From contig NZ_CP028365.1 of the NCBI RefSeq assembly GCF_003033925.1, positions 1,612,001 through 1,676,000 on the forward strand: a stretch of 64,000 nt of DNA, in the 5' to 3' direction. Position 1 is the stretch's first letter. Each line of letters opens with the position of its first letter. The notes below the pieces were generated by a model that saw only the letters and a program-made list of their open reading frames with translations, was not told the origin of the DNA and made no database searches. This DNA comes from Tannerella serpentiformis (lineage in GTDB: Bacteria; Bacteroidota; Bacteroidia; Bacteroidales; Tannerellaceae). Of this stretch, positions 2,473 through 51,790 are shown piece after piece. The translations under genes were made by a program, and so were the position numbers.

Positions 2473-2935
2473 GGGAAATGGCCTCTCCCGAAGGTTGGAC
2501 CCATTTCCTCAGTCGGGAAATGACCTCTCCCGAAGGTTGGACCCATTTCCTCAGTCGGGAAATGGCCTTTCCCGAAGGTTGGACCCATTTCCTCAGTCGG
2601 GAAATGGCCTCTCCCGAAGGTTGGACCCATTTCCTGACTCGGGAAATGGCCTCTCCCGAAGGTCGGACCCATTTCCTCAGTCGGGAAATGACCTCTCCCG
2701 AAGGTTGGGCCCATTTCCGAGGCTCGGGAGTGGCCTCTCCCGAAGGTTGGGCCCATTTCCGAGGCTCGGGAATGCCCTCTCCCGAAGGTTGGACCCATTT
2801 CCGAGGTTCGGGAATGCCCTCTCCCGAAGGTTGGACCCATTTCCGAGGCTCGGGAATGCCCTCTCCCGAAGGTTAGACCCATTTCCGAGGCTCGGGAATG
2901 GCCTCTCCCGAAGGTTGGATTCCTTTGAGGCTTGG
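2473..2935. repeat. Array A: about eleven tandem 42-bp repeats inside the metal-efflux cluster
   Basis: Units begin at 2473, 2515, 2557, 2599, 2641, 2683 and continue with near-identical sequence to about 2935. Across each unit junction the sequence CCATTTCC-(7 nt)-GGAAATGG forms a hairpin with 8-bp arms. From about 2711 the loop changes from TCAGTCG to GAGGCTC, so the array has two sub-blocks. Because 42 is a multiple of three and the unit lacks stops in several frames, long low-complexity frames run through it on both strands. I do not believe any of them is translated. The array fills the gap between the adaptor and the P-type ATPase. Confidence 0.93.
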
Positions 2936-3001
2936 GGAAGAAGGTGGCTGGCATACGTCGAATCATTACTGCATAAGAATTGCATATCCAATCACATCAT
3001 C

Positions 3002-4885
3002 ATGATAAAGAACAAGAAATTACAGCGAATCATCCTCTCCGCACTCCTACTCATCGCAGCCGTGGCGGTGGAGAGAAACGCCGTGTTGCCCGTATGGCAA
3101 CTACTGTTGATCTACTTGCCTTCCTACCTGCTCGTGAGTTACGACATCTTGGCTGAAGCCTGGGAGGGCATTATGGAACGAGATCCATTCAACGAACATC
3201 TGCTGATGAGCATAGCTACGCTTGGCGCTATGCTGATCGGCTTCCTGCCCGGCGCCGAGCCGGAGTTCACCGAGGCTGTCTTTGTGATGCTCTTCTTTCA
3301 GGTGGGCGAACTGTTTGAAGAATATGCCGAGGATCGCAGCCGACGCTCCATCGCCGAGCTGATGGACATCCGTCCGGATACGGCCACGGTGGAGCGTAAC
3401 GGTGTAACCGAGGCGGTGCACCCCGAGACTGTAGCCGTGGGAGAGCTGCTTGTGCTGCGACCAGGAGACAAAGTGCCGATGGACGGCATCGTCATCGAAG
3501 GGACATCAAGCCTGAACACCGTGGCGCTGACGGGCGAGAGTGTTCCGCGCACAGTGGGCCGCGGCGACAGGGTCATCTCGGGCTGCGTCAATGTCAGCGG
3601 AATGATCAAGATGCGGGTGGAGAAGAGCTTCGGCGAATCTACCGTCTCCAAGATCATTCGTCTGGTAGAAAGCGCCGGAGAGAACAAGTCGAAGAGCGAA
3701 AACTTCATCACCCGTTTTGCGAAGGTCTATACTCCCATCGTGGTCTATATCTCTCTTGCGCTGGCCATCCTGCCGCCACTGCTCTCGGGCGACTTTGTAG
3801 CCGTCTTCCCGCTTTGGCTGAATCGCGCACTCACCTTCTTAGTTGTGTCCTGCCCCTGCGCCTTGGTGCTATCCATCCCTCTGACCTTCTTTGGTGGCAT
3901 CGGTGGGGCTTCGCGACAAGGCATCCTTATCAAGGGCGGAAACTACATGGACACGTTGGCCAAGGCGGACACGGTGGTGTTTGACAAGACGGGCACCCTC
4001 ACGCGGGGCGTGTTCAGCGTAAACGCCATACACCCCAAGGCAATCAGCGATCGGGAGCTGCTCCATTTAGCCGCTCACGTAGAGCGTTTCTCCACGCACC
4101 CCATCGCACAGTCGCTGCGTGAGGCATACCCCGAAGAGTCGGACGACTGCACGGTGAAGGATGTGGAGGAGATAGCCGGACATGGCATCCGCGCTCAAGT
4201 CAATGGCCGCAGCGTGAGCGTGGGTAACACGAAAATGATGGACAGCATTGGCGCCCAATGGCTGCCTTGCAAGCTGATAGGTACAATCATACATCTGGCT
4301 GTGGATGGCACATACATGGGGCACATCGTCATCTCTGACGAGATCAAAGACGACGCCAGCGAAGCCATTGATGCGCTTAAAGCCTTGGGCGTACGAAAGA
4401 CCGTCATGCTTACCGGCGACCGCAAAGAGGTGGGTGAGGATGTGGCCAAGCGGATCGGAATCGACGAGGTGCAGACCGGATTGTTACCGGCCGATAAGGT
4501 GAGCCACCTTGAGCGATTGATGAAGGAGAAGAAAGCCGGAGGCAGTCTGCTCTTCGTCGGCGACGGCATCAACGATGCGCCTGTACTAGCCCGTGCGGAC
4601 GTAGGCGTGGCTATGGGTGCCCTCGGATCGGACGCAGCAGTAGAGGCTGCCGATGTGGTATTGATGGACGATCGTCCGTCGAAGGTGGCAGGAGCCATAT
4701 CCATCTCTCGCAAGACCATCGGTGTGGCCATGCAGAACGCATGGTTTGCTATTGTGATCAAGGTGCTCGTACTCCTTTTGGCCGGATTTGGCATCGCCAC
4801 GATGTGGATGGCCGTCTTTGCAGATGTCGGCGTCACCGTCTTAGCCGTGTTCAATGCCATGCGGACACTGCGAGTGAAGAGTTGA
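3002..4885 (+). CDS. P1B-type heavy-metal-translocating ATPase (Zn/Cd/Pb type likely)
   Basis: This 627-residue protein starts at ATG 3002 just before a hydrophobic N-terminus. The frame is open further upstream only because of the 42-bp repeats. Visible motifs in order: TGES actuator loop, CPC in a membrane helix (C284-P285-C286), phosphorylation motif DKTGTLT (D328), the HP dipeptide of P1B pumps (STHPIA) and the hinge GDGINDAP (from residue 520). CPC with this overall form fits the ZntA/CadA/HMA2 group, but substrate is inferred. There is no N-terminal HMA metal-binding domain, which is common in Bacteroidetes. It lies in the same direction as the RND genes and probably works with them in metal export. 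Confidence 0.93.
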   Translation: MIKNKKLQRIILSALLLIAAVAVERNAVLPVWQLLLIYLPSYLLVSYDILAEAWEGIMERDPFNEHLLMSIATLGAMLIGFLPGAEPEFTEAVFVMLFFQVGELFEEYAEDRSRRSIAELMDIRPDTATVERNGVTEAVHPETVAVGELLVLRPGDKVPMDGIVIEGTSSLNTVALTGESVPRTVGRGDRVISGCVNVSGMIKMRVEKSFGESTVSKIIRLVESAGENKSKSENFITRFAKVYTPIVVYISLALAILPPLLSGDFVAVFPLWLNRALTFLVVSCPCALVLSIPLTFFGGIGGASRQGILIKGGNYMDTLAKADTVVFDKTGTLTRGVFSVNAIHPKAISDRELLHLAAHVERFSTHPIAQSLREAYPEESDDCTVKDVEEIAGHGIRAQVNGRSVSVGNTKMMDSIGAQWLPCKLIGTIIHLAVDGTYMGHIVISDEIKDDASEAIDALKALGVRKTVMLTGDRKEVGEDVAKRIGIDEVQTGLLPADKVSHLERLMKEKKAGGSLLFVGDGINDAPVLARADVGVAMGALGSDAAVEAADVVLMDDRPSKVAGAISISRKTIGVAMQNAWFAIVIKVLVLLLAGFGIATMWMAVFADVGVTVLAVFNAMRTLRVKS

Positions 4886-4930
4886 ATCTCTCTCTCTACA
4901 CAAAGGCATATCACATGAAAGAGGAATGAA

Positions 4931-4999
4931 AAAGAAGGGGAGTAAGGTGTAGTCAGAATGGTTTCATCTATCCTGACTACACCTCAACCCCTCTTCTTT
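4931..4999. terminator. Long hairpin after the P-type ATPase, terminator-like
   Basis: The arms AAAGAAGGGG-(4)-AGGTGTAGTCAG and CTGACTACACCT-(3)-CCCC-(1)-TTCTTT are complementary around a loop of about 16 nt. It lies between the ATPase stop and the convergent recombinase stop and could end transcription from both sides. An attachment-site role next to the integrases cannot be excluded. Confidence 0.6.
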
Positions 5000-5091
5000 C
5001 ACTGTATTACCCCCATTGTAGTCATGTAGTAAGATAGAATCAGTGAAAGGGAAAAAGTATGCCGTTTTACGTTAGACAGCCGTCCTAGGAA

Positions 5092-6300
5092 TCACACTGA
5101 AGCCGCTTGTTGCTTTTGGATCAGCTTGTCCATGTCTTCCGAGATCTTTTTGTCCGTCACCTGCGCATAGATCTGCGTGCTGGAGATGGAGGCATGTCCC
5201 ATCATCTTGGCGATGCTCTCTATCGGGATGCCTGCGCTGAGCGACAGGGTTCCGAACGTGTGGCGTGCCATGTGGAAAGACAGTCGTTGCCTGACGCCAC
5301 ACGCCAGTCCCACAGTACTCAGTTTGCTATTCATCACACTGCGGCTGCAACTGCGTGGAAAGATAAGGTCCTCGCCTTTTCCTTTCACCGCCTGATTCTC
5401 CCGGCATCTGCTAAGGATCTCCTCCGCGATCGGATGTAGCGGCACGACAGACTCGACTTTTGTCTTCTGCCGTTCCTTGCGGATATACCTCCCGCCATCG
5501 GCAGCTGTTTGAATGTGCGAGAACTTCAGGCGTTCCATATCCGCAATGGCCAGTCCGGTGAAGCAGGAAAAGAGGAACATCTGCCGGGCCTGCTCTGCGT
5601 CCCTGTCGTTCACTTTCAGCGCCATGAGCTTGGCCACGTCGCTCTTTTGCAAGAATCGAATCTTCCTTTCCTCTTTTTCATAGGTGACATCTTCAAAAGG
5701 ATGGCAGCGGATGACTTTCAAGTCTACCGCACGATACATCAATCGACTCAATCGGCAGAGGTGCTTGTTCATGGTCGATGCCGCCAAACCGCGTTTTTTG
5801 AGAAAGAAGCGGAAGTCCTCAAACAGATCTTCCGTAATGCCTACGAGGGGGATGTCTCGCCCTCCGTTTTCCTTCATGAACGCCCGAAGCAGCTTGTCCG
5901 AATAGATCAGGTTTTGGTAGGTGCTTTCAGCTTTCGACTTGCCTACGCATGCCTTCACAGATTGCAGTTCCGCCTCGCTCATGGCCAAAAGGGTGGTCGG
6001 TACGGCGGCAACGCCCTGCAAGCGGTTCTTGAGCAGTTCTGCACTGACTATGCCGTCCTTCGTGAGCATTTCCGCGTAAGTCTTTTCCACAAGCTCCTTG
6101 AACGCTGCGAGGCGTTGGTTGATTTTCTTTTCGCCGGCTGTCCCCTGTCTGCTGTTCCATTCGGCCGGCAGACATTCCTCACCTGTGGTAATAGCTGTGC
6201 TCCTACCATCGATAGTGACGCGGCAAAAGATGGCTGTCTTGCCGTCTGCTTTTGTCTTCTGCCTGTTGATGTAGAACAGGATCTTGAATGTACTTCTCAT
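5092..6300 (-). CDS. Tyrosine recombinase (Bacteroidetes integrative-element type), second of a tandem pair
   Basis: This 402-residue integrase has an N-terminal arm-binding region (MRSTFKILFYINRQKTK), a central SAM-like core-binding domain and a C-terminal catalytic domain. The catalytic box reads HMARHTFGTLSLSAGI, followed by GHASISSTQIYAQV with the tyrosine nucleophile. The usual first catalytic arginine region reads FTGLAIADMERL and has no Arg in the canonical place, as reported for the IntDOT group. The start is 12 bp after the stop of the upstream recombinase gene, so the two are probably co-transcribed. The pair is typical of one end of integrative/conjugative or mobilizable elements. 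Confidence 0.92.
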   Translation of the reverse strand: MRSTFKILFYINRQKTKADGKTAIFCRVTIDGRSTAITTGEECLPAEWNSRQGTAGEKKINQRLAAFKELVEKTYAEMLTKDGIVSAELLKNRLQGVAAVPTTLLAMSEAELQSVKACVGKSKAESTYQNLIYSDKLLRAFMKENGGRDIPLVGITEDLFEDFRFFLKKRGLAASTMNKHLCRLSRLMYRAVDLKVIRCHPFEDVTYEKEERKIRFLQKSDVAKLMALKVNDRDAEQARQMFLFSCFTGLAIADMERLKFSHIQTAADGGRYIRKERQKTKVESVVPLHPIAEEILSRCRENQAVKGKGEDLIFPRSCSRSVMNSKLSTVGLACGVRQRLSFHMARHTFGTLSLSAGIPIESIAKMMGHASISSTQIYAQVTDKKISEDMDKLIQKQQAASV

Positions 6301-6312
6301 GTTGGTCTGTGG

Positions 6313-7542
6313 TTAAATGGTTAGGTGCAAATCTTCGGTGAAGGCGATTAAGCGATCGAACTCCTCGAATAACTTCTGCGGTGTCACCTTCGCATATCGC
6401 TCGGTCATGCGCACTGTGCTATGTCCAAGCATCTTGCTGACGGTCTCGATGGGCACGCCCTGTTCCAAGGTGATGAGCGTAGCGAAGGTGTGTCGAGCGG
6501 TGTGTGTGGTGAAGGGCAGCGTGATACCGGCCCGCAGTCGGAGGGCTTTCAGATGCGATTGATAGGTTATGTAATGGATGTGAGGAAGCAACGTATCCCT
6601 CGATTCATCATGCAATTTGTTCATCAGTTGAAGGGCCTCGGGCAACAGCTTTACACGGCAGAGGACACCCGTCTTCTGCCGGTTGAACTTCAGCCAAAGG
6701 GCGCCTTCGTCGTCGCAGACAAGATGCCCACGGTTCAGTGCCATTAGATCGCAATAGGCGGCGCCGGTGTAACAGGCGAAAAGAAACACATCGCGCGCTG
6801 TCTCCAAGTCAGCCTCCCAGCCGTCAAAACAGAGCGCCTTTAACATGTCCAACGCTTCCCTATCGAGCGCTTTGGGCAGTCGACTGTCTCCCTTGTCTAC
6901 ATGCACATTGTCGAATAACAAGGTGTCTGCCGCGCCTTCTCGATACGCCAGCTTGCAGACCTTTTTGACAAGGACGACCATGTTGTAGCAGGTGCTTTGT
7001 TTTAGCCCTACCTCTCCGGTTGCGAACTGCTCGAACCGCTTGACGAAGTCTTCCGTGAGCTGCGAAAAGGTCAAGTCCGAAGCGTTATGCTTCGCCCGAA
7101 TGAACTGTTGCAGCCTCATTCTTGTCTGACGATACAAGACCAAAGACTCTCTTTTGATGTCTATCCCGACGTGCTCCTCCATATCCTCGATCAGGCCGTC
7201 AAACCGCTCCAAAAGCATGGTTCGACTCTGCACGCTGCCTTGGAAATGCTCCTTGATGTCGGTTGCGTCAAATGGAGATCCCTTGGCAAGCAAGGACTGA
7301 TAGGAAGACTGAACGGCAAGAAGGAGGTTGTCCAATCGTCCATTGACTTCGACCGCCTCACGGCTCTTCCCGTCCACCCGACTTTCGCGCGGGTTCCACA
7401 AATCGGGATTGCAGAACAGCTTGCAACTGAACTGTGCAATGGAACGCCCCAGCGTGATCCGTCCCATGATCGGCGCCTTGCCCGACCTGTCGCGACTGCT
7501 CTTTTTGAGGTAGAGCAACACCTTCATTTTCATGTCATCCAT
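6313..7542 (-). CDS. Tyrosine recombinase (Bacteroidetes integrative-element type), first of a tandem pair
   Basis: This recombinase has up to 409 residues. The start may be MDDMKMKV at 7542 or the internal MKMKVLLYL nine bases later. Domains are as in its neighbour: an arm-binding N-terminus, a SAM-like domain, and a catalytic domain with HTARHTFATLITLEQG then GHSTVRMTERYAKV (Tyr nucleophile). The position of the first catalytic Arg reads CYTGAAYCDLMAL, so it lacks the canonical residue. It is only distantly similar to the other integrase, so the pair is not a recent duplication. Its promoter should lie in 7543-7840, next to array B. Confidence 0.92.
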   Translation of the reverse strand: MDDMKMKVLLYLKKSSRDRSGKAPIMGRITLGRSIAQFSCKLFCNPDLWNPRESRVDGKSREAVEVNGRLDNLLLAVQSSYQSLLAKGSPFDATDIKEHFQGSVQSRTMLLERFDGLIEDMEEHVGIDIKRESLVLYRQTRMRLQQFIRAKHNASDLTFSQLTEDFVKRFEQFATGEVGLKQSTCYNMVVLVKKVCKLAYREGAADTLLFDNVHVDKGDSRLPKALDREALDMLKALCFDGWEADLETARDVFLFACYTGAAYCDLMALNRGHLVCDDEGALWLKFNRQKTGVLCRVKLLPEALQLMNKLHDESRDTLLPHIHYITYQSHLKALRLRAGITLPFTTHTARHTFATLITLEQGVPIETVSKMLGHSTVRMTERYAKVTPQKLFEEFDRLIAFTEDLHLTI

Positions 7543-7835
7543 ACGCTTTGAAAACTGTGGGCAAAATTACCCGGTTCAAAGCGTCCGTTACCTGTGCAGA
7601 ATCCTGTATATCAATGCAAAAGAACCGTGTGCGAGAAAGACTCAGTTACCTGCTTTTGCACCCTCGTTACCTGTCGCGGGGCGGGGTAATGCTTTGGTAA
7701 CTGAACTTCTGCCTAAAATCGCACTTTTCTGCCTTTTACGCTCGACGCAATCGGAAGCATATCGACCCCTTTCTGCCTAATTATCAGTCCACTTACTCCG
7801 ACATCGAGACTTCTGCTTTTGAGGGGAATAGTTGG
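7543..7835. other. Intergenic leader of the recombinase pair; no gene seen
   Basis: About 290 bases separate the recombinase start from the 22-bp repeats. I see no supported gene. It should contain the integrase promoter and possibly one attachment end, but no direct repeat or tRNA 3' end could be recognised. Confidence 0.4.
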
Positions 7836-8110
7836 TTCGGAACGTATCACAACCACGTTCCGAGGTACCCAAGACCACGTCCGGAACGTATCGCAACCAC
7901 GTTCCGAGGTACCCAAGACCACGTTCGGAACGTATCAAGACCACGTCCCGAACCTATCGACACCACGTCCGGAACGTATTACAACCACCTCCCTAACGTA
8001 TTACAACCACCTCGGAACGTATTACAACCACCTCACCAACGTATTCTAACCACCTCGGAACGTATTACAACCACCTCACCAACGTATTTCGACCACCTCG
8101 GAACGTATTA
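7836..8110. repeat. Array B: tandem repeats of about 21-22 bp (GGAACGTATTACAACCACC type)
   Basis: About a dozen units of a 21-22 bp motif lie in tandem with small variations (cacaaccac, caagaccac, gacaccac, and a 'ccctaacg' variant near 8000). In the left part two neighbouring units join as ACGTTC/GAACGT-like palindromes. The same motif recurs in the opposite orientation at 51453-51790. The array lies between the integrases and the rprY terminator. Confidence 0.92.
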
Positions 8111-8147
8111 AGGGGCTGCCTCGTAACATCCTTCCGATACATAGAAA

Positions 8148-8190
8148 AGAGGGGCGGAGCACCCTTGTTGCTGGGTGTCCGTCCCTCTCT
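8148..8190 (-). terminator. Rho-independent terminator of the rprX-rprY operon
   Basis: Read on the minus strand, a GC-rich stem AGAGAGGGACGGACACCC pairs with GGGTGCTCCGCCCCTCT around a short loop and is followed by TTTTC. It lies about 55 bp past the response-regulator stop. Confidence 0.85.
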
Positions 8191-8244
8191 TGCGGTGTTT
8201 ACAGCGTCGCCCCGGGGAGGGGGGCGCTGCGTGCGGGAGACTCC

Positions 8245-8976
8245 TTAGTCGATGAGTCCTTCTTCGCGTGCCTGATCCTCGCCCGACTGGGTGATGAGCT
8301 TGTAGCCCTTCCCGTGGATGTTGATGATCTCGATGTTGGGATCGTCGCGGAGCAGCTTGCGCAGCTTGGTGATGTAGACGTCCATGCTGCGGGCGTTGAA
8401 GTAGTTGTCGTCTACCCAGATGGTCTTCAGGGCGTAGTTACGCTCCAGCACCTCGTTGGCATGGGCGCAGAGGAGGGTCAGCAGCTCGCACTCTTTGGTG
8501 GTGAGCTTGGTCATCTTCTCGCCGATGGTGAGGGTCTGCTTCTGGGTGTCGAACATGAACTGGCCGATGCGATAGAAGGGCACGTCTTTGGGCTTCTTGC
8601 CCTTGACGCGGCGCAGGATGGCTTCGATGCGCGAGAGGAGCACCTCCATGCTGAAGGGCTTCGTGAGGTAGTCGTCGGCGCCGTTCTTGAAGCCCTCGAG
8701 CACGTCCTCGTTCATCGTCTTGGCGGTGAGGAAGACCAGGGGCACGTCGGGGTTGATCTGGCGGATGTCCTGCGCCAGGGTAAAGCCGTCCTTCTTGGGC
8801 ATCATCACGTCCAAGAGGCAGATGTCATACTTGGCTTCGGAAAAGCCCTTCAGACCTGCTTCGCCATCGGTGAAGAGGTCGGTGGTAAAACCTTTGGCCT
8901 GGAGGTATTCGCGGAGGATCATACCCAGGTTCTCGTCGTCTTCGCAGAGGAAGATTCTCAATTTTTCATCCATCAT
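8245..8976 (-). CDS. rprY: OmpR-family response regulator, RprY-like
   Basis: This is a 243-residue regulator. I place the start at ATGATGGATGAAAAA (8976), 10 bp after the kinase stop; a longer open frame would overlap the kinase by about 100 bases without family support. The receiver domain has the acidic pair (EDDEN) and phospho-acceptor Asp55 (DICLLDVMMPKKDG, numbered from MDEK). The winged-helix domain (TTKECELLTLLCAHAN ... MDVYITKLRKLL ... NIHGKGYKLI) is OmpR type. It shares an operon with the kinase upstream. Bacteroidetes RprY has been linked to oxidative and membrane stress; that role here is by homology. Confidence 0.9.
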   Translation of the reverse strand: MMDEKLRIFLCEDDENLGMILREYLQAKGFTTDLFTDGEAGLKGFSEAKYDICLLDVMMPKKDGFTLAQDIRQINPDVPLVFLTAKTMNEDVLEGFKNGADDYLTKPFSMEVLLSRIEAILRRVKGKKPKDVPFYRIGQFMFDTQKQTLTIGEKMTKLTTKECELLTLLCAHANEVLERNYALKTIWVDDNYFNARSMDVYITKLRKLLRDDPNIEIINIHGKGYKLITQSGEDQAREEGLID

Positions 8977-8986
8977 AATGCTTGTA

Positions 8987-10516: not shown

Positions 10517-10764
10517 TCTCTTCTGTTTCCTGTCCCCGTTTTTAACACAACAAAGAACGGGTATTTCGGTTTAACATTTTACGAAGGGGTAAAAAAATGA
10601 GCGTAGCGGGGTCAGGGTGCAGGATCGTTTTCATGGGTGTATATATATAGGTATAGGCCGATCGGCCTTGGATGGCGCATACAGTGCCCCCCTCGGAAGG
10701 CGGCCTTTTTCACTTTGCCCTAACTCGGAGCCTCCCCCGAAAAGGCAGAATCTTACTGCCTACT

Positions 10765-10772: not shown

Positions 10773-10819
10773 CCCCCGAAGAAAAAATGATCATTCCCTC
10801 GAAAACGAATCAAATAGAA

Positions 10820-13373: not shown

Positions 13374-13387
13374 TAACGTGAGTTCGA
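13374..13387. mobile_element. Possible IS982-type terminal remnant
   Basis: The 14-mer TAACGTGAGTTCGA is identical to the sequence just outside the transposase remnant at 61555-61568. This suggests an old insertion-sequence end in the stretch between lysC and rpsL. No transposase coding is seen here. Confidence 0.35.
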
Positions 13388-13446
13388 TGTAGGAATAAAG
13401 CCAGCAAGAAAGTTTCTACGGAAGCTACACGATGACCCAAACGCCT

Positions 13447-13575
13447 TTGGAAATGCTTGCAACATTGTTGCAACGAGGAAAAAGTGCTTTTTGGTGCTTG
13501 CAAGACTGTTGCCACGGGGAAAAAGTGGTTTTTGGCGCTTGCAACAATCTTGCAAGCTCCCAAAAGCACTTTGGC
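13447..13575. repeat. Array C: three 41-bp palindromic repeats upstream of rpsL
   Basis: Three units with 41-bp period carry TTGCAA/TTGCAA-like palindromes (CTTGCAACATTGTTGCAA) followed by AAAAAGTG and TTTTTGG. The last unit is partly decayed. The design resembles the array at 34501-34810 (TTGCAG...CTGCAA then AAAAAGTTTTT). It lies about 300 bases upstream of the str-operon promoter. Confidence 0.8.
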
Positions 13576-13870
13576 CGTTACAGCGCTCTATCAAAGACAT
13601 CTTTCCGGGATAAGGATCCTCATTTTCTTTCGCCGAATCCGCATTTCGTAACATGGGAAACAAACATCTCGATCGAATGCAACCAAGATCAATCGAAATA
13701 CACCTCTCAGAAATACCCCAGAGTTTTCCCTCGCGAGTTGTCCCTTTGTCGAGAATGAGGGCGTTACGAAAACTATCTTGCCCCTCCCAAATACGTCGTT
13801 TCCCATCCCTCGCTATCTATGTTCTTGCAACACGGAATGCCTTGAAACCCAAATTCATTTCATGTCTCCA

Positions 13871-22079: not shown

Positions 22080-22080
22080 T

Positions 22081-34239: not shown

Positions 34240-34500
34240 CGCCCATCAGGTTCTGATCAACAGGGGGATCCTCAAATGTACATCGCCACTACACATCGCC
34301 ACACGCACGCCAACCATCGTTGTTACAACGATCTGCACGCGCCGAGCACAGCCCGACGTCACTGCCTCGTTGCGCCTTGTGTGGCCCCGCATCGCCCCCT
34401 CCGATCTGTTAAAAGAGACACTTCATGTGGTCTTATCGCCTCGCCCCTCGCTGGGACAGATTTCGCCATGCATCCTCACGGCTCGCTTTTCGAAAGTGTT

Positions 34501-34810
34501 TGCAGCGTTCCTGCAAAGTCCAAAAAGTTTTTTGTGGCGTTTGCAGCGTTCCTGCAAAGGCCAAAAAGTTTTTCGAGGCGTTTGCAGCATTCCTGCAAAG
34601 GCCAAAAAGTTTTTCGGGGCGTTTGCAGCATTCCTGCAAAGGCCAAAAAGTTTTTCGAGGCGTTTGCAGCATTCCTGCAAAGGCCAAAAAGTTTCTCGAG
34701 GCGTTTGCAGCATTCCTGCAAAGGCCAAAAAGTTTTTCGAGGTGCTTGCAGCATTCCTGCAAAGGCCAAAAAGTTTTTCGAGGTGCTTGCAGCGTTTCTG
34801 CAAGCACCCA
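34501..34810. repeat. Array D: eight 41-bp palindromic repeats in the leader of the DUF6261 gene
   Basis: Units start at 34501, 34542, 34583, 34624, 34665, 34706, 34747 and 34788, an exact 41-bp period. Each has TTGCAG-CATTC-CTGCAA and then AAAAAGTTTTT, so both halves can form small hairpins. The last unit is diverged. The surrounding 34045-34500 and 34811-34879 hold no supported gene; frames that run through the repeats cycle with the period and look non-coding. Confidence 0.93.
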
Positions 34811-42482: not shown

Positions 42483-42533
42483 GTGGGGTTTGAATGGAGA
42501 TTAAACGGTGTTTGAATGGAGTGGTAAGGCTAC

Positions 42534-42793
42534 GTCGATCCGATCGACGGGGCCATTCTGATCTGAAAACAGCCGTCGATTCGATCGACGAGGCCATTTC
42601 GATCTAAAAACAGCCGTCGATCCGGTCGACGGGGCCATTTCGATCTGAAAACAGTCGTCGATTCAATCGACGGGGTTATTTCAATCTGAAAACAGTCGTC
42701 GATTCGATCGACGAGGCCATTTCGATCTAAAAACCGCTGTCGATTCAATCGACGGGACGTTTCACGCTGAAGGTGGCCGTCGATCCGGTCGAC
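42534..42793. repeat. Array E: seven 41-bp palindromic repeats (GTCGAT-TCG-ATCGAC)
   Basis: Units start at 42534, 42575, 42616, 42657, 42698, 42739 and 42779. Each has a 15-nt palindrome (GTCGATTCGATCGAC and close variants) and a conserved linker GGGGCCATTTCGATCTGAAAACAG. Palindrome variants (tccga, tccgg, ttcaa) keep the pairing through compensated changes. The array lies between the start of the hydrolase gene and the terminator of the Ig-like protein gene. Confidence 0.93.
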
Positions 42794-42819
42794 GGAACCT
42801 TGCCGCCGGCATAAAAAGC

Positions 42820-42868: not shown

Positions 42869-42897
42869 TATCAATACAAATGAAAACAAGTCCGTGG

Positions 42898-44517: not shown

Positions 44518-44637
44518 GTTCTTTCCTATTAGGGGGTTTGAATAATCGAGGTGATGTGCAGTATAAACAACCGCGGTCAAGGATAAGTTCAAGAGAGGAG
44601 GATTCCCAGTCCCCCTTCTCTTGGCTGATATACTGGC

Positions 44638-45762
44638 TTATTGAACAAGGATTTTGCGCCTCGTTCGGTCTACGGCGACAATGTAGAGACCGCGGCGGAG
44701 CGGCACGAAACGGTCGCCCGGCGTGAGGCTCTCGCGATGGGCCAGGGCGCCGGTCAGGGTGTAAATCTCGAGTCGTGCGGGGCGGTCGACGTGTACCATC
44801 ACGCCACCATCGACGTTACGAATGGCCGTCGTCTTGTCCACTTCGACGGAGGCCGTCGTGTTCGGATCGACGGTGATCACGGTGCACGAATCGAGTCGGC
44901 CGTCAGCCGCTTCAGCTACGACGAGCGCGGTATCGGCCACGGTAGCGCCGATCAGCTCGGCTGCTTGACCGATAGAGTCAACCGGTAGGACCTTGACTGC
45001 ACCGCTTACAACGGTCCACTTTACTCGTTGATCCGTCGCATTGCGCGGGAGGAGGGTGGCGCGGAGTGTGTCGGTTTTATTGATGTCCACTCGGATTGTG
45101 TCGTGGTTGAGCGTCAGACGCTCCACGGGGATGCGGCGGGTGATGATGACGCATGTGTCGCGTTTGCCCGATTCGTCCAGCGCACCCACGATGAGCAGAC
45201 TGGTGTCCGCATCGGCCGCAGCAATGACGCGGGTCACGCTATCCGTAGTGCCAAGCACGCGCGCGCCACCCACGGTGGTCCATCCGAGCTTCTTATCCGA
45301 GGCGTTGTAGGGGAAGATGCGGGCCATGACGGAGGCCGTGTCGCCGGTGCGCAGTCGGATGGTGTCGCGCTTCAGGCGGAGGCTGTCGACATAGATCTTG
45401 GGCGTAACCACCACAATACAGCGGGCTGCCACCTCATTGACGCGCACAACGATGACCGTCTTGCCCGGCTTCCAAGCCTTGACGATGTAGACGGAATCGT
45501 AGGGGTTGGTCGAATGGGGCGGGGCGATGGAGGCTACGACGGGGATGGAGACGCGATTGTCCCAATAGAATACGCGGGCACTGGGATAGGCATAGGCGCG
45601 GAGGGAATCTTCCTGGCCGACGTACATCCGCAGGGTGTCCTTCTCGATCTTGACGATTTGCTGCACTTTCTGCACTTGCGCTGAGGCGCTGTAGGGAAAG
45701 GCTCCTGCGATCGCAAAGAGGATCGCCATACAGAAATAAAAGGAGGTTTTTCTCACACTCAT
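44638..45762 (-). CDS. Exported Ig-like (Big_2) repeat protein with T9SS-type C-terminus, shorter paralogue
   Basis: The product has 374 residues. It has a signal peptide (MSVRKTSFYFCMAILFAIAG...SASAQ). Three Ig-like group 2 domains follow (VDSLRLKRDTIRLRTGDTAS; VERLTLNHDTIRVDINKTDT), then a T9SS-type C-terminus (RLEIYTLTGALAHRESLTP...RRGLYIVAVDRTRRKILVQ). It shares domain order and end with the protein at 42898-44517, from which it is separated by 120 bp, so the two probably form an operon and a paralogue pair. Confidence 0.82.
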   Translation of the reverse strand: MSVRKTSFYFCMAILFAIAGAFPYSASAQVQKVQQIVKIEKDTLRMYVGQEDSLRAYAYPSARVFYWDNRVSIPVVASIAPPHSTNPYDSVYIVKAWKPGKTVIVVRVNEVAARCIVVVTPKIYVDSLRLKRDTIRLRTGDTASVMARIFPYNASDKKLGWTTVGGARVLGTTDSVTRVIAAADADTSLLIVGALDESGKRDTCVIITRRIPVERLTLNHDTIRVDINKTDTLRATLLPRNATDQRVKWTVVSGAVKVLPVDSIGQAAELIGATVADTALVVAEAADGRLDSCTVITVDPNTTASVEVDKTTAIRNVDGGVMVHVDRPARLEIYTLTGALAHRESLTPGDRFVPLRRGLYIVAVDRTRRKILVQ

Positions 45763-45913
45763 ATGGGGCTATTTATGGATTTGAATAATAGTGGATGATC
45801 CGAAAAGATAAAGGGGGATAAGGGGCATCCCAAATCCCCTATCTGCCTGATTACAGGCTTAACACTGACGCACAAAAGTATCCCTTTCCCTAAGCCTCGG
45901 CCGGAAGAGCGTC

Positions 45914-45921
45914 TATATTTG
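45914..45921 (+). promoter_or_regulatory. Bacteroidetes -7 box (TATATTTG) before thiN
   Basis: TATATTTG lies 24 bp before the ATG of the thiamine pyrophosphokinase gene. No clear -33 TTTG was found at ideal spacing. Confidence 0.5.
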
Positions 45922-45944
45922 CGAGGTTTTAACAATCGACTGAC

Positions 45945-46610
45945 ATGGATATTCTACCTGATTTTTCCGGCCCCAAAAACGCCTCAGAGACGGACGCGGT
46001 GATCCTTGCGGCGGGTGATTTCCCTACGCATCCGATCCCGCTGGGGCTACTGGCGAGGGCGGCCGAGGGGCGCATCATCTGCTGCGACGGTGCGGCTGAC
46101 CGACTGCTGCGCGAGGGCTTCACGCCGTTGGCTGTCGTGGGCGACGGCGACTCGATCTCGCCCGAGGCACGCCGCCGTTTATCCGACCGCCTGCACATAG
46201 AATCGGAGCAGGACACGAACGACCTGAGTAAGGCCGTGCGCTACGCTGTCTCTCAAGGGATGCGCCACCTCACGATCCTCGGCGCCACGGGCCGCCGCGA
46301 GGACCATACGCTGGGCAACATCAGTCTGCTGGCCGACTATCAGGCGCGTGGGCTGGACGTGGAGATGTGGACCGACTACGGCGTCTTCACCCCCGCCACA
46401 GGCTGCCAGACGTTCGCCTCGCGGGCTGGCCAACAGGTCTCCGTCTTCTGTCTGGACGACGCGCCGCTTACCCTCCGCGATGTGCGCTGGCCGCTTGAAG
46501 GGCGACGCATCACTCGATGGTGGCAGGCTACGCTCAACGAGGCCCTCACGGATAGGTTCCGCATCGAGACACGGGGCTGCATCATCGTCTTCCGTACCTA
46601 CGCAGATTGA
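45945..46610 (+). CDS. thiN: Thiamine pyrophosphokinase
   Basis: The product has 221 residues. Diagnostic motifs: CCDGAADRLLREGFTPLAVV, GDGDSISPEA, QDTNDLSKAVRYA and GATGRREDHTLGNISLL. It converts thiamine plus ATP to thiamine diphosphate. No thiamine riboswitch could be recognised in the short leader. An MFS permease follows after 84 bp. Confidence 0.93.
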   Translation: MDILPDFSGPKNASETDAVILAAGDFPTHPIPLGLLARAAEGRIICCDGAADRLLREGFTPLAVVGDGDSISPEARRRLSDRLHIESEQDTNDLSKAVRYAVSQGMRHLTILGATGRREDHTLGNISLLADYQARGLDVEMWTDYGVFTPATGCQTFASRAGQQVSVFCLDDAPLTLRDVRWPLEGRRITRWWQATLNEALTDRFRIETRGCIIVFRTYAD

Positions 46611-46694
46611 GCCTTTCCCCCGCACGTCATCATTTCACCGCTTTATCATTCATAATCAACCCCGATTTATCCACACTTTTATCTCAGTAACACT

Positions 46695-47975
46695 ATGAAC
46701 CTGAAACTTCGCTTGATCATTATGAACTTCTTGCAGTTCGCTGTGTGGGGCACGTACCTCACCTCCATGTCGCGCTACCTCGGGCCTGCGGGCATGGGCG
46801 AACACATCGGACTTTTCTATTCCGTGCAAGGTCTCGTCTCCATCTTCATGCCCACGCTGTTCGGCATCCTGGCCGACCGCTACGTGCCGGCGCAACGCAT
46901 GCTCGCTCTCTGCCACTTAGCCTCCGGACTCTTCATGGCCGCCGCGGGTGCCTATGGGCTCTCGGCCGGACCGTCCGTTGCCTTCGGAACCTTCTTTGCG
47001 CTCTACACACTGGGCGTAGCTTTCTACATGCCTACGCTGGCACTCTCCTACTCCGTGGCCTACAGCCTGCTTGAACAGGGTGGCTACGACACGGTACGCG
47101 ACTTTCCGCCTATCCGCATTTTCGGCACCATCGGCTTCATCTGCTCCATGTGGGCGGTCGATCTGACGGGCTTCCAAACCTCCGCCATGCAGTTTGTCAT
47201 CTGCGGTGCGCTGGGCACTCTGCTGGCTCACTATGCCTTCACGCTGCCCCATATACCCGTCAGCCGAAGCATGGAGCGCAAGTCGTTCGTCGAGGCCCTT
47301 GGGCTGAATGCCTTCCGACTCTTCCGCAAGCGTCAGATGGCCGTCTTCTTCATCTTCTCGATGATGTTAGGCGTCTCGTTGCAGATCACGAACGGCTTTG
47401 CCAACCCCTTCATCGCCTCCTTCGAGTCGGTGGCCGAATATGCCAACACCTTCGGCGTGCAGCACGCCAACATCCTCATCTCTCTCTCGCAGGTTTCCGA
47501 GACGCTCTGCATCCTGCTCATCCCCTTCTTCCTAAGGCGTTACGGCATTAAGACGGTCGTGCTGATTGCGATGGTGGCTTGGATCCTGCGCTTTGCCCTC
47601 TTCGGCATCGGCAATCCCGGCGGGGGCGTCTGGCTGCTCGTGCTGTCGATGATTGTCTACGGTGTGGCTTTTGACTTCTTCAATATCTCTGGCTCGCTCT
47701 TCGTCGATCGGGAGACGGATCCCTCGATTCGCTCCAGTGCGCAGGCCCTCTTTTTCCTGATGACCAGCGGCGTCGGCGCCACAGTGGGCACGCTCGGTGC
47801 ACAGGCCGTGGTGAACACCTTCTGCCAATGGACGGACGTGGAGACGGCCGGCGGTGTCAAGACGCTCTTGGTGGGCGATTGGTCTACGGTGTGGTACCTC
47901 TTTGCGGGGTATTCGCTCCTCGTGACCGTCTTCTTCGCCATCCTTTTCCCTTATAAGCACAAGCGCGGGGGCTGA
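46695..47975 (+). CDS. MFS nucleoside:H+ symporter-like permease (NupG/XapB type)
   Basis: The product has 426 residues with twelve predicted helices. The start MNLKLRLIIMNFLQFAVWGTY and the helix 1-2 region (YLGPAGMGEHIGLFYSVQGL) match the NHS family of nucleoside permeases, as does the RDFPPIRIFGTIGFICSMW loop. It should import nucleosides with protons. Cotranscription with thiN is possible. Confidence 0.82.
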   Translation: MNLKLRLIIMNFLQFAVWGTYLTSMSRYLGPAGMGEHIGLFYSVQGLVSIFMPTLFGILADRYVPAQRMLALCHLASGLFMAAAGAYGLSAGPSVAFGTFFALYTLGVAFYMPTLALSYSVAYSLLEQGGYDTVRDFPPIRIFGTIGFICSMWAVDLTGFQTSAMQFVICGALGTLLAHYAFTLPHIPVSRSMERKSFVEALGLNAFRLFRKRQMAVFFIFSMMLGVSLQITNGFANPFIASFESVAEYANTFGVQHANILISLSQVSETLCILLIPFFLRRYGIKTVVLIAMVAWILRFALFGIGNPGGGVWLLVLSMIVYGVAFDFFNISGSLFVDRETDPSIRSSAQALFFLMTSGVGATVGTLGAQAVVNTFCQWTDVETAGGVKTLLVGDWSTVWYLFAGYSLLVTVFFAILFPYKHKRGG

Positions 47976-48006
47976 TCGTCGGCCTATCGGGATGCATAAA
48001 TCGCAG

Positions 48007-48052
48007 AAAGCCTCCGGATACATGGTGTCGTCCATGCGTCCGGAGGCTTTTT
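48007..48052 (+). terminator. Terminator of the thiN-permease unit
   Basis: AAAGCCTCCGGA...CATGG and CCATG...TCCGGAGGCTTTTT form a strong stem with a six-base loop and a T-run. It lies 30 bp after the permease stop. Confidence 0.92.
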
Positions 48053-48083
48053 GTTATCCTCTTAATTCGGATGCTGGTGAGCT

Positions 48084-48478
48084 TAGAAGTTTCTTCCACG
48101 GTATCCCCACCTGCTGTCAGCCCTCTGGAAGAAACTTCCACGGGGCTCTCACCTGCTTTTACCCCTCTGGAAGAAACTTCCACGGTGTTCGCACCTGCTG
48201 TCAGCCCTCTGGAAGAAACTTCCACGGGGCTTTCACCCGCTGTTACCCCTCTGGAAGAAACTTCCACGGGGCTCTCACCCGCTGTCAGCCCTCTGGCAGA
48301 AACTTCCACGGGACTCTTACCCGCTGTCAGCCCTCTGGAAGAAACTTCCAAGGGGCTCTCACCCGCTGTCAGTCCTCTGGAAGAAACTTCCACGGGGTTC
48401 GCACCTGCTGTTACCCCTCTGGAAGAAACTTCCACGGGGTTCGCACCTGCTGTTACCCCTCTGGAAGAAACTTCCCAG
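48084..48478. repeat. Array F: nine 42-bp repeats (TGGAAG-AAA-CTTCCA) between convergent genes
   Basis: Full units begin at 48123, 48165, 48207, 48249, 48291, 48333, 48375, 48417 and 48459 with an exact 42-bp period; a decayed copy precedes at about 48084. Each has TGGAAGAAACTTCCA and a linker CGGGGCTCTCACCCGCTGTC-like. One unit reads TGGCAG, breaking the palindrome. The array starts just after the permease terminator and ends 12 bp before the DUF4954 stop. Confidence 0.93.
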
Positions 48479-48490
48479 CGTGTCAAACGT

Positions 48491-50335
48491 TCAGAGCATA
48501 GCTCGCGCCTGCTCCGCCTTATGTTCCATCTCGCTGAGGAGGGGGGCCAGGAAGGGGTCAGTGGCGATCTCTCCGCGCACTTGTAGGAAGTCGGTCTGCC
48601 GATCGCTCTCGGGGCAGTCGGCGCCGTAGCTGATTTGCGACACGCCGAAGTACTCCAAGGCGGCCTCCTTAGAGAGGCGATGGCGGACGGTGTCGAGCGT
48701 CGAGACGTAGCGCTTCAGATGCTCGCGGCGCTTGTCTGCGTCGGAGAGGTCGTAACGGTCCGTGACGTAGCGCCCGAGGTATTCCTCATATCGCGCATGT
48801 GCCTGACGAAACGCGGCGTCGGCCCCGAAGAGGTCGTCGTGGACGATCTCCTCAAGCGTTTCATGGGGCATAACTAACCCCGACAGGTCGATCCACGGGC
48901 CGCGGCCCGGCCCCTCGGAGTCGTCGATGGTGCCGCCGCAGACGAGGTAATCGCCTACGAAGATGTCGAGCGCCTCGCGATAGTAGGTGATGCCTTTCTG
49001 CAACGAGTGGCGATGGATGGAGCAGTTGCCGAAGGTGTAGTATTTGGCGTCGGGCTTCTCCTCTTTCAGTCGCGAGAGGAGGTTGACGGCCGCCAGGATG
49101 CGGTCGATGAGGTCGGGATTGAGGAAGTCGTAACGGATCAGGTCGCGCGGACTGTCGGCGGTGCGATGGTCGCGGTTGGGCCACTTTGTGGCGTCGCGGA
49201 GGGTGCCCGTGCGGAAGAGGTTGACGGCCGGGATGAGCATCGACTGCCCGTCCTCGTCCATGAGGTAGGAGAATGGAAGCGCGTGCGTATCCGGGTGGTT
49301 GCGGTGCTCGCCGGTGATCATCGAATAGGCACCGAAGTGAGCTGGCGCCTGTACGTAGGAGTTGCTACCGAATTTCGTTCCGCGCTCGGCCACAGACTGG
49401 TGGACAGCGCCGAGCTTGTAGGCATGGTTGCTCATGTTTGACCCGCTGCCCATGTTGGCGAACGAGAGGCTGCAGGCGATCGAGAGGCTCGATTTGTGGT
49501 GCGAAACGGTGTGCGGGGCAGCGAAGACTGAGACGGCCTCGCCCTTGGCGAACATCCCATTGGCAAACAGTAGGCAGTCGATGGCCGTGAAGCCCTGCTC
49601 TACTAAGCAGGCCTCGCCCACGAAGCAGCGTTCGATGAACGCGCCGTCCACGACGCGTGCACCGGGGGCCAGAATAAAGTCGCGAGCCATGACGCCGACG
49701 CCTACCTCTGTCGGTGCCTCGGGCTGGCTCAGTATGGTACCGTTCTGCAACAGTGTTGCGCCGCAGACCGTGGCCCTGTCGCCGATACGCACATCCACGA
49801 TACGTCCGCATCCCTCCACTGTAGCCCCCTCGCCCACATATCCGCGTGGCGCCGCCGCGATGGTGGCGGCATAGGCGTCGATGCGATCGAACGTGCGGCG
49901 GAGTGTCTCCGTGCGGTGTCGATGGAAGACCATGAGGTGGGCCGTCTGGGCCGTAAGTCCGTCGAAGAGGGGGACAGCACGGCCACCGTTCTCATTGACC
50001 GCAGCCACGCGCACCCCGTTACCGGCCGTCGTGCCCGCGCGATAGGTCATCGTGCCGATGTCAGTGAGTCGGGCGCCACGGCCTATCTCATAGCCGGCCA
50101 GGGCGGAGCGTACGCCGTTAATGCGTACGCCGTCGCCCACCATGCAGTCGCAGATCGTCGCGTCCCGGAGGTCGACAGCGCTACCCAGGCTGATCTGCCC
50201 CGAGAAGCGTACGTGGCGCAACCGTGTGGGGTCGAACCCCACATCGGCTACCTCCACGCGCTGCCAATCCTCGGCCTCGCAGCCACTGGCCACGAGCGCG
50301 TCGATCTCGCATTGCGTCAGTTTTCTGTACGGCAT
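48491..50335 (-). CDS. DUF4954-family protein (left-handed beta-helix acyltransferase-like)
   Basis: The product has 614 residues. Residues about 40-260 carry hexapeptide-like turns (ISLGSAVDLRDATICDCMVG; GEGATVEGCGRIVDVRIGDR) as in nucleotidyl/acyltransferase beta-helices. The middle contains SLSIACSLSFANMGSGSNMS NHAYKLGAVHQS, well conserved in the family. The C-terminal half is helical. DUF4954 is found mainly in Bacteroidetes and its role is not known; sugar or nucleotide-sugar handling is only a guess. It lies 12 bp after the small gene at 50348-50656. Confidence 0.85.
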   Translation of the reverse strand: MPYRKLTQCEIDALVASGCEAEDWQRVEVADVGFDPTRLRHVRFSGQISLGSAVDLRDATICDCMVGDGVRINGVRSALAGYEIGRGARLTDIGTMTYRAGTTAGNGVRVAAVNENGGRAVPLFDGLTAQTAHLMVFHRHRTETLRRTFDRIDAYAATIAAAPRGYVGEGATVEGCGRIVDVRIGDRATVCGATLLQNGTILSQPEAPTEVGVGVMARDFILAPGARVVDGAFIERCFVGEACLVEQGFTAIDCLLFANGMFAKGEAVSVFAAPHTVSHHKSSLSIACSLSFANMGSGSNMSNHAYKLGAVHQSVAERGTKFGSNSYVQAPAHFGAYSMITGEHRNHPDTHALPFSYLMDEDGQSMLIPAVNLFRTGTLRDATKWPNRDHRTADSPRDLIRYDFLNPDLIDRILAAVNLLSRLKEEKPDAKYYTFGNCSIHRHSLQKGITYYREALDIFVGDYLVCGGTIDDSEGPGRGPWIDLSGLVMPHETLEEIVHDDLFGADAAFRQAHARYEEYLGRYVTDRYDLSDADKRREHLKRYVSTLDTVRHRLSKEAALEYFGVSQISYGADCPESDRQTDFLQVRGEIATDPFLAPLLSEMEHKAEQARAML

Positions 50336-50347
50336 GGGCCGGAGGCT

Positions 50348-50656
50348 TTACTTCTTCTTTCCGCCCAGCATGCCAGCCAGGTCGTCCATGATGTTGCCGT
50401 CCTTGTTCTTGTCGATCATGCCGGTGATCTTGTCGACAACACCTTGGCCCTTGCCGCCAAGGTTGCTCACGACGCCGCTAACCAGTCCGCTGAGGCCCTC
50501 GCCGCTGCCGGCATGTTTAGACACTACGTCGAGGATCATCGGCAGTGCAGCCTGGAGCGCGCCCGAGGCCTGCGACTCGTTCAATCCCGTCTTCTCTACA
50601 ATCGTTTTGATGATCGACTGCGTGGCCGATCCGCTGAATAAATCATTCAAGTTCAT
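50348..50656 (-). CDS. Small DUF937-like protein
   Basis: The product has 102 residues from ATG 50656 (MNLNDLFSGSATQSIIKTIV). A much longer open frame upstream has no supporting motif. It has a helical core (ASGALQAALPMILDVVSKHA), a glycine-rich middle, and an EF-hand-like DKNKDGNIMDDLAGML. The whole resembles DUF937/YidB-type small proteins. First gene of an operon with DUF4954. Confidence 0.65.
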   Translation of the reverse strand: MNLNDLFSGSATQSIIKTIVEKTGLNESQASGALQAALPMILDVVSKHAGSGEGLSGLVSGVVSNLGGKGQGVVDKITGMIDKNKDGNIMDDLAGMLGGKKK

Positions 50657-50696
50657 TGTCGTATAGGTTTTTGTGAGTGAATAAAAAAATGTCGGC

Positions 50697-50704
50697 CAAA
50701 AGTA
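50697..50704 (-). promoter_or_regulatory. Bacteroidetes -7 box (TACTTTTG) for the DUF937-like/DUF4954 operon
   Basis: On the minus strand TACTTTTG lies 40 bp before the ATG at 50656. The -33 element is poor, so this is only moderate support. Confidence 0.45.
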
Positions 50705-50873
50705 CGGGTGACTTTCTGAATGCGTCGTCGCTGCCGCGATTGTTAACCATTCTCCATGACATTTAGGCAGCTCCGGAGAGCTCCCGCCTGACCTATAGAC
50801 ATAGGTGAGGCGAGAGAGAAACTTAACGGTGGAGAAAGTGAGGTGCGACCTAAATCGTGTCGCTTCTTGGGCG

Positions 50874-50881
50874 TAGCTTTG
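50874..50881 (+). promoter_or_regulatory. Bacteroidetes -7 box (TAGCTTTG) for the HD hydrolase gene
   Basis: TAGCTTTG lies 30 bp before ATG 50911. It supports this start over the ATG at 50857, which would precede the promoter. Confidence 0.5.
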
Positions 50882-50910
50882 GGTGCATAAACAGTAAGAA
50901 GAGAATAGGT

Positions 50911-51381
50911 ATGGGAACTCAAAGCAACTGGGTTGAAGCTGCCGCGCGAGTGGCTCGACGACTGCATGATGGGCAGAAAGACAAGGCTGGGATGGACTAT
51001 TTTGAGGGTCATCTGCGTTTTGTGGCCTCATTAGGGCGTACCTGGCAAGAGCAGGTGGTCGGCTATCTCCACGATGCAAGCGAGGATACCCCGCACACCG
51101 TGGAGCAAGTCTTGAAATTGTTGGAAGAAGAAGCTCAAACAGCGATGGAGCCAAACGATAGGGCAGAGATCGCGCAAGCACTGAAGCTGCTCAATCATCA
51201 TACGGCCAGTGACCGCCAGACCTATATCCATCACATCGGCGAGCATGCACTGGCGCGCGCCGTCAAGCTGAATGACCTAACGCACAATATGGATATGAAG
51301 CGTCTACCGTCCCCCACGGAAAAGGATTACCAGCGTTTAGCTCGGTATCGGCAGGAGTACGAATATCTCGCTCAGCAATAA
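50911..51381 (+). CDS. Small HD-domain hydrolase, RelA/SpoT-hydrolase-like (Mesh1-type candidate)
   Basis: The product has 156 residues. Its HD pattern is: His19 in ARRLHDGQKDKAGMDYFEGH, His34, then the HD pair H54-D55 in VVGYLHDASEDTP, and KLNDLTHNMDM near the end. The order and spacing follow SpoT-like (p)ppGpp hydrolase domains, where the equivalent motifs read AHxGQ, HDVxED and KLADxxHN. No synthetase or TGS domain is present. Phosphohydrolase on ppGpp or another nucleotide is inferred. Confidence 0.65.
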   Translation: MGTQSNWVEAAARVARRLHDGQKDKAGMDYFEGHLRFVASLGRTWQEQVVGYLHDASEDTPHTVEQVLKLLEEEAQTAMEPNDRAEIAQALKLLNHHTASDRQTYIHHIGEHALARAVKLNDLTHNMDMKRLPSPTEKDYQRLARYRQEYEYLAQQ

Positions 51382-51452
51382 ACCGCCCCCTCCACTTCGC
51401 ATGGCTTAGTGTTCTTCGAAGAAGCTGTTTGGGATTTATTTCGGGGGGGGAT

Positions 51453-51790
51453 AACGTTCCGAGGTGGTCGTAATACGTTAGGGAGGTGGTTGTGATACGT
51501 CCGGAACGTGGTTGTGATACGTTCGGAACGTGGTTATGATACGTTCGGAACGTGGTTACGATACGTCCGGAACGTGGTTGCGATACGTTCGGAACGTGGT
51601 TGTGATACGTTCAGAACGTGGTTACGATACGTCCGGAACGTGGTTGCGATACGTTCGGAACGTGGTTGTGATACGTTCAGAACGTGGTTACGATACGTCC
51701 GGAACGTGGTTGCGATACGTTCGGAACGTGGTTGCGATACGTTCGGAACGTGGTTAAATACCCCTCGGAACGTGGTTAAATACCCTTCAG
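51453..51790. repeat. Array G: tandem 22-bp repeats, inverted copy of array B
   Basis: About fifteen units of GATACGTTCGGAACGTGGTT type lie in tandem with 22-bp period. The unit junction ACGTTC-G-GAACGT is a 13-nt palindrome. The first two units (CCGAGGTGGT.GTAATACG then TTAGGGAGGTGGTTGT) match array B at about 7971-8016 in reverse complement, including the order of variants. The array directly abuts the truncated toprim/AAA gene. Confidence 0.92.

Follow-up and report, generated by a model that had tools for sequence, protein, structure and literature searches.

Intergenic tandem arrays of near-constant unit length and variable sequence in Tannerella serpentiformis, carried in part by non-autonomous mobile elements

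How does a single bacterial genome come to hold tandem arrays that share the length and form of their repeat unit, while its sequence varies from one array to another? The question is raised by a window of 64,000 bp of the Tannerella serpentiformis genome (bases 1,612,001-1,676,000 of the single 3,013,500-bp contig that holds the whole genome, NZ_CP028365.1), which includes seven such arrays, here called A1 to A7. Tandem Repeats Finder (TRF) and our own gene finder, a simple home-made one, agree with the initial annotation of the window on their places and on the intergenic position of all seven. We lean towards the view that they are intergenic, often palindromic minisatellites that have been dispersed partly as the cargo of non-autonomous mobile elements and have then evolved in place. 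Miniature inverted-repeat transposable elements (MITEs) of IS982 type (A3 and the family of A4) and of ISAs1 type carry 41- or 42-bp arrays, and in a third family, that of A2, the array is attached to a repeated unit encoding two recombinases.

The pattern extends well beyond the window. Abundance was assessed on 20 stretches of 20 kb taken at even steps along the genome (400 kb), arrays being counted at a TRF score of at least 100. This sample holds 68 arrays (17 per 100 kb, 4.3% of bases). The period is 40-43 bp in 53 of them, which cover 3.5% of bases; a smaller group lies at 20-23 bp and one array falls between 24 and 39 bp. Extrapolated from these 400 kb, there would be roughly 400 arrays of 40-43 bp per genome. 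With the window added, 54 of the 66 intergenic arrays have a period of 40-43 bp. A k-mer rule divides the 58 arrays of 40-43 bp in sample and window into 40 sequence-distinct types, whose TRF consensus unit measures 42 bp in 24 types, 41 bp in 15 and 43 bp in one. When 65 unit consensuses of 20-44 bp are grouped by single linkage, they fall into 37 clusters, of which 25 have one member; the largest (14 members) may join unlike units. A reading of the 41/42-bp unit as a dimer of a 21-bp unit was set aside, no excess of half-unit self-similarity being seen in the 58 arrays or 40 types. The central proposal of the annotation, that length and form are constant and sequence is variable, is borne out by the sample; arrays elsewhere in the genome do not combine random periods with an absence of palindromes, the outcome that it had set against its own proposal.

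The seven arrays of the window had been described as unrelated, and this does not stand. A2 (7838-8110, unit of 22/44 bp) and A7 (51464-51796, unit of 22/66 bp, about 14 copies of 22 bp) are members of one 22-bp family in opposite orientation, with 22 pieces in the genome. A3 (13454-13555, 2.5 copies of a 41-bp unit) and A4 (34498-34803, 7.5 copies of a 41-bp unit) belong to one superfamily, and the family of A4 amounts to 46 blastn pieces in the genome. A6 (48108-48475, 8.8 copies of a 42-bp unit) has a family of six loci, itself and five others, with flanks common to three of the five. Only A5 (42533-42795, unit of 41/82 bp) has no other match in its own genome. The family of A1 (2462-2919, 10.9 copies of a 42-bp unit) also comprises six loci, A1 and five others; two of the six are 100% identical within a duplicated region. 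Coordinates are from TRF, family membership from searches of the genome. A1 and its neighbouring genes appear identical at two chromosomal places (window 962-4419 and genome 2261118-2264575); the array is 100% identical over 458 bp and the flanks inspected are identical too.

In aligned flanks, many copies of the A3/A4 superfamily possess a leader and a tail terminating in ACGTGAGTTCGA. The exact sequence occurs 34 times in the genome, against none for the reversed control. Surroundings were fetched for 30 of the 34 copies, and 14 of these 30 form seven inverted pairs with both ends exact (179-350 bp), five of the seven with duplications of 6-7 bp. Allowing up to two mismatches at the second end yields 14 pairs of 127-601 bp, half of them (7 of 14) with target duplications of 6-7 bp; among these, L239 has probably been matched to a false partner within an insertion sequence (IS). 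This one MITE family includes copies without an array (127 and 152 bp), a copy with a single palindrome-linker-palindrome (227 bp) and copies with up to about ten units, and it spans several unit sequences, the array differing strongly from copy to copy. The MITE containing A3 (13376-13644, 269 bp, plus strand) has an exact left ACGTGAGTTCGA and a degenerate right one (5 of 12 positions mismatched), and is flanked on both sides by the duplication TTCGTA. No terminal repeats were seen for A4 itself.

The ends of these MITEs are shared with an IS. In the window, an IS982-type remnant (61557-62045) has an exact ACGTGAGTTCGA at 61557, an inverted copy with three mismatches ending at 62045 and, on the minus strand, a transposase fragment. 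The genome holds 14 pieces matching the IS982 transposase, some of them overlapping; two are above the family cut-off and have stops inside. An uninterrupted transposase of 300 amino acids lies between ACGTGAGTTCGA-type ends in Paramuribaculum intestinale. The assignment to IS982 of the transposase with ACGTGAGTTCGA ends is that of NCBIfam, one match being just below the cut-off. A weak IS982 match at 2200886, in an open frame of 292 amino acids, was discarded, for two exact ACGTGAGTTCGA ends do not enclose it; its product resembles an IS5-type transposase.

A second terminal repeat, CAGGGCAACCGNATCAAA, is found 18 times in the genome with at most one mismatch (control, 0). Each of three pairs (352, 394 and 478 bp) encloses a 42-bp array and is flanked by 10-bp repeats, which are exact in one case and match in 9 of 10 letters in the other two; the element with the exact repeat is nested in another 41-bp array, whose repetition could mimic a duplication. 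Further pairs comprise one of 187 bp without an array and one of 1145 bp encoding pieces of an ISAs1 transposase. The array A2, for its part, lies at the end of a unit of 2.85 kb (5011-7866, minus strand) with two tyrosine recombinase genes (5092-6300 and 6313-7542), assigned by Pfam, the NCBIfam matches being below curated cut-offs. As judged by blastn and junctions, this unit is present at four genomic places, with a 22-bp array at the same end each time.

Palindromes vary more than the period does. The annotation had described one palindrome with arms of 6-8 bp in each unit. Arms of this length are indeed present in six unit consensuses (A1 8, A3 8, A4 7, A5 8, A6 6 and A7 6 bp), that of A6 not going beyond shuffles (p 0.10). 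The 22-bp consensus of A2 contains no palindrome, the sequence folding instead with arms of 8 bp that reach beyond a single unit. Another palindrome lies half a unit off in A3 and A4 and, as a weak one, in A5. The stem of A1 is TTTCC/GGAAA with several alternative 7-nt loops, A3 has TTGCAACATTGTTGCAA and AAAAAGTGCTTTTT about 20 bp apart, A5 begins and terminates with CGTCGAT..ATCGACG and the palindrome of A7 is CGTTCGGAACG. Among the 40 types, 20 reach a palindrome score of at least 5.5, compared with 5.2% of shuffled units. Within the 25 arrays that passed filters, 5.2% of stem bases deviate from the consensus and 9.0% of other bases.

In one family the palindrome arms covary, and array ends lie at palindrome edges beyond expectation. 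The A3/A4 superfamily provides 195 copies of a 17-nt palindrome, TTGCxx.....xxGCAA, in 29 clusters. Its two variable arm positions form Watson-Crick pairs in 192 and 191 of the 195 copies, where independent arms would give 102 and 120; only copies with exact outer arms fit the pattern, and those within one array are not independent. The arm types are AG in 14 clusters, GG in 12, AA in 9, AC in 3 and GC in 2, and 10 of the 29 clusters contain two or more types, mostly as blocks. Array ends were placed relative to the main palindrome in all 33 of the 58 arrays in which it scores at least 5.5 and that have at least three copies. Its edge is no more than 3 bp away from 13 starts and from 15 ends, for 5.6 expected each, the p-values being optimistic because the edge counts and the second harmonic were picked after the values had been viewed. 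The first harmonic is not significant in these 33 arrays (p 0.23 and 0.10), and offsets near half a unit show no enrichment among starts or ends (7 of 33 for each, where 7.2 are expected).

Two sister genomes of the genus, G014 and G041, have unequal copy numbers at one orthologous site. These are genomes whose DNA is mostly 84-95% identical where aligned: a 42-bp array there has about 6.4 units in G014 and about 2.4 in G041, the latter read by eye and absent from the TRF list at score 80. Two further G014 arrays sit in segments of 2.2 kb and 1.4 kb that are missing from G041. The DUF4954 gene between A6 and A7 was tried as an anchor for an orthologous site and abandoned, no relatives being confirmed in genome contigs and none found in G014 or G041.

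How far this architecture reaches was gauged on stretches that were not randomly chosen and come mostly from draft genomes. G014 has 15 arrays in 258 kb, 13 of them with a period of 21, 23, 41 or 42 bp, G016, also of the same genus, has five in 129 kb (21, 21, 22, 42 and 63 bp) and G041 four in 160 kb (8, 41, 186 and 221 bp). There are three in 90 kb of G018 (36, 36 and 52 bp), two in 66 kb of Porphyromonas levii, both of 22 bp, and none in 80 kb each of Parabacteroides massiliensis and Bacteroides ilei. Three genomes from other families of the order hold seven arrays in 362 kb, none at 20-23 or 40-43 bp, and 80 named Bacteroidales EF-G loci (1.40 Mb) hold 20 of mixed periods. Set beside these 20, the 53 of 68 arrays at 40-43 bp in the T. 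serpentiformis sample are more than chance would give. The comparison counts may be low because most of the genomes are drafts and two sampled G014 contigs (C2 and C125) start at an array; such DNA may be lost from draft assemblies of the genus. A comparison of EF-G puts a Tannerella metagenome-assembled genome (MAG; 90%) and P. massiliensis (89%) first among the named relatives listed, the genome itself perhaps having been left out. A Mediterranea MAG locus opens with a 41-bp array of unrelated sequence (L101, 1-259), hinting at the same unit length outside this family.

The annotation, which mentioned tandem-repeat MITEs of Porphyromonas gingivalis, knew of no family with mixed sequence and fixed period. 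That no such family is known is not supported: P. gingivalis has two MITE families with internal repeats of 23 and 41 nt (PMC4596501). BrickBuilt has 23-nt repeats, 19 elements and 0.44% of the genome. Like the arrays studied here it is intergenic and consists of a leader, a head-to-tail minisatellite of about two helical turns and a tail; it has terminal repeats in common with an IS, and its repeat number varies between strains (PMC4596501). MITE464/MITEPgRS resembles them in having 41-nt tandem repeats within a MITE (PMC4596501). The comparison with T. serpentiformis covers the terminal repeats of Table 2 of that paper. In sample and window, GAGACTGTTGCA, the terminal repeat of MITE464/MITEPgRS, has no hits with at most one mismatch, and GAGACCTTTGCA has four, none near an array; nor does the BrickBuilt terminal repeat have a hit near any array. 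In contrast, the left terminal repeat of MITE239 begins with ACGTGAGTTCGA, the same as in the MITE of A3 (PMC4596501, Table 2). Unlike the present elements, MITE239 and MITE700, which go together with ISPg3, do not seem to have contained minisatellites according to PMC4596501, and ISPg3 is filed there under IS5 whereas NCBIfam places the transposase with these ends in IS982.

The features expected of MITEs with an internal minisatellite are found again in T. serpentiformis: intergenic repeats, arranged head to tail, with units of about 22-23 or 41 nt; terminal repeats that also bound an IS of this genome, which holds for just two families (IS982-type and ISAs1-type); and target duplications, in the IS982-type family (7 of 14 pairs, and A3) and the ISAs1-type family (all three array elements). 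The pattern in T. serpentiformis is a larger and more diverse variant of this kind, with 53 arrays of 40-43 bp in 400 kb (3.5% of bases) against the 19 elements of BrickBuilt, and 40 sequence types against its single repeat family. Searches of the open PubMed Central literature, which covers only a minority of subscription journals, listed no report of the pattern in Tannerella. The genome is unusual among bacteria in having one unit length with dozens of sequences over about 3.5% of a systematic sample. It ties the 23- and 41-nt MITE repeats of P. gingivalis to a broader phenomenon seen in a genus like Tannerella, and what sets the unit length of a minisatellite becomes testable in bacteria.

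A scheme of dispersal followed by local evolution can be outlined. The transposases of full elements would have moved the MITEs in trans. Slippage, or unequal exchange from one palindrome to the next, may then have added and removed units, and the form palindrome-(linker-palindrome)n would follow. Sequences may turn over through concerted change while unit length stays near 41/42 bp, because a change of length would need to spread through all units. Arrays that lack mobile-element ends would, in this scheme, be old copies or fragments. The simplest candidate cause of the 41/42 bp (about four helical turns) is inheritance of the length, since one MITE family already has many sequences at 40-42 bp. 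The arrays are most likely tolerated passengers of intergenic DNA, to which we attribute no host function. The common generating process suggested by the annotation is recovered only in part, in the mobile-element vehicles shared by some families, in the arm covariation of one and in the array ends at palindrome edges.

Several observations weigh against this scheme. Most arrays lack mobile-element ends: across sample and window (464 kb) an IS982-type repeat (at most one mismatch) lies within 300 bp of only five arrays, and flanking inverted repeats better than 99% of random pairs accompany 6 of the 57 arrays tested, in some cases owing to the palindrome of the array. The genome itself yielded no uninterrupted IS982 transposase, which leaves present mobility unproven. 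A strong palindrome is missing in half of the 40 types, and the end-phase and covariation counts include related arrays. Most of the 40 types have no sequence link, so that common descent is not shown, and these missing links remain compatible with a process that sets the period. A comparison of copy number hints that expansion itself favours 40-43 bp: this period is found in 48 of 57 arrays with more than three copies and in 10 of 19 with three or fewer (Fisher p 0.01, post hoc), the other nine of the 19 having other periods. With coding and edge arrays removed, the figures are 43 of 51 and 8 of 14 (p 0.06).

Two other explanations place the unit length at the centre. A process of the lineage, enzymatic or physical and independent of sequence, might measure two or four helical turns and build or keep intergenic arrays from seeds; unrelated sequences, including the MITE families of two genera, would then converge on 21-23 and 41-42 bp. 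We regard this as unlikely. A better, though still doubtful, candidate is selection on helical geometry, to which the annotation had pointed as a possible role, with dyads spaced two turns apart (about 21 bp) along the same face of the helix and bound by a protein that reads shape or spacing (a nucleoid protein, gyrase or a structure-specific protein), so that units of 41/42 bp would contain two dyads and those of 21-23 bp one. The clustering of periods at 40-43 bp, with the lesser group at 20-23 bp and a single array at 24-39 bp, is what such a binder would ask for, as is the recurrence of the same lengths in G014 and G016. In 9 of the 20 strong types the second-best palindrome lies at least 19 bp (half a unit) from the first, where 3.9 are expected (p 0.009); with related arrays still included, 17 of 35 have a second palindrome at this distance, for about 6 expected. 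The greater frequency of 40-43 bp among arrays with more than three copies leans slightly the same way. Moreover, all seven window arrays, taken as about three units each (six for A2 and A7), fold as single strands better than dinucleotide shuffles, with z from -2.3 to -5.7. Selected geometry accords less well with the half of the types that lack a strong palindrome, with the dissimilarity of the two halves of the unit and with an orientation to genes like that of other long gaps. The lengths of 14 MITEs are also out of helical phase (R 0.24, p 0.46 at 10.5 bp; lowest p 0.10 at 10.3 bp), and the idea that MITE ends held in phase are the source of the 41/42 bp was dropped.

Function at the level of RNA, the arrays being transcribed as strings of hairpins that end, protect or regulate neighbouring transcripts, appears improbable. 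Palindromic units in intergenic positions would suit it, and promoter elements with bidirectional activity have been reported for BrickBuilt (PMC4596501). Yet intergenic arrays are not clearly concentrated in convergent gaps or downstream of genes: 34 are co-directional, 13 divergent and 7 convergent, the corresponding numbers among all gaps of 150 bp and above being 107, 34 and 25. Pairing in RNA should favour G-U over A-C intermediates, read along the direction of transcription, and no clear excess of this sort is seen, with 25 G-U to 21 A-C in co-directional arrays (small numbers). At gathering score, Rfam has three matches in the window, none on an array. Alternating palindromes in short intergenic arrays also recall repetitive extragenic palindromic (REP) sequences and bacterial interspersed mosaic elements (BIMEs; compare PMC3733652 and PMC2817692), and one Y1 transposase gene lies between similar flanking repeats (L214, 1205-2405), an arrangement like that of a REP-associated tyrosine transposase (RAYT, TnpA-REP). 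Mobilisation by a RAYT is nonetheless very improbable: this is the only Y1 gene, it is closest to the IS200 model and just below the cut-off, and its flanking repeats differ from those of the arrays. The tags GTAG, GGAG and CGTC occur in 6, 10 and 8 of the 40 unit types (shuffles 11.0, 11.8 and 11.2), so that none of the three is enriched; no dedicated RAYT system is apparent, and two array families belong to MITEs of DDE transposases. Chance or artefact, whether coding repeats, CRISPR arrays or assembly error, is refuted. Only 4 of the 61 arrays with period 40-43 or 22 bp in sample and window overlap a predicted coding sequence, while 54 are intergenic and three lie at the end of a stretch; the units of the window arrays are contiguous, head to tail, with no unique spacers of CRISPR type; the whole genome is in one contig, and the same unit lengths appear in independent assemblies of the genus.

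Other features of the DNA examined stand apart from the 41/42-bp arrays. Beside A7 (window 51508-54612), genes for an AAA_25 protein and then an Abi_2 (abortive-infection-like) protein are found. A group II intron occupies window 55743-58146 on the minus strand, with a maturase gene at 55861-57528 and Rfam matches at both ends. Arrays of 7-bp units with a telomere-like look occur at L151 4273-4513 (CTACCCT, 34 copies) and L134 18790-18894 (TAGAGGG, 15 copies), and arrays of 7-bp units are present in G014 and G041 too.

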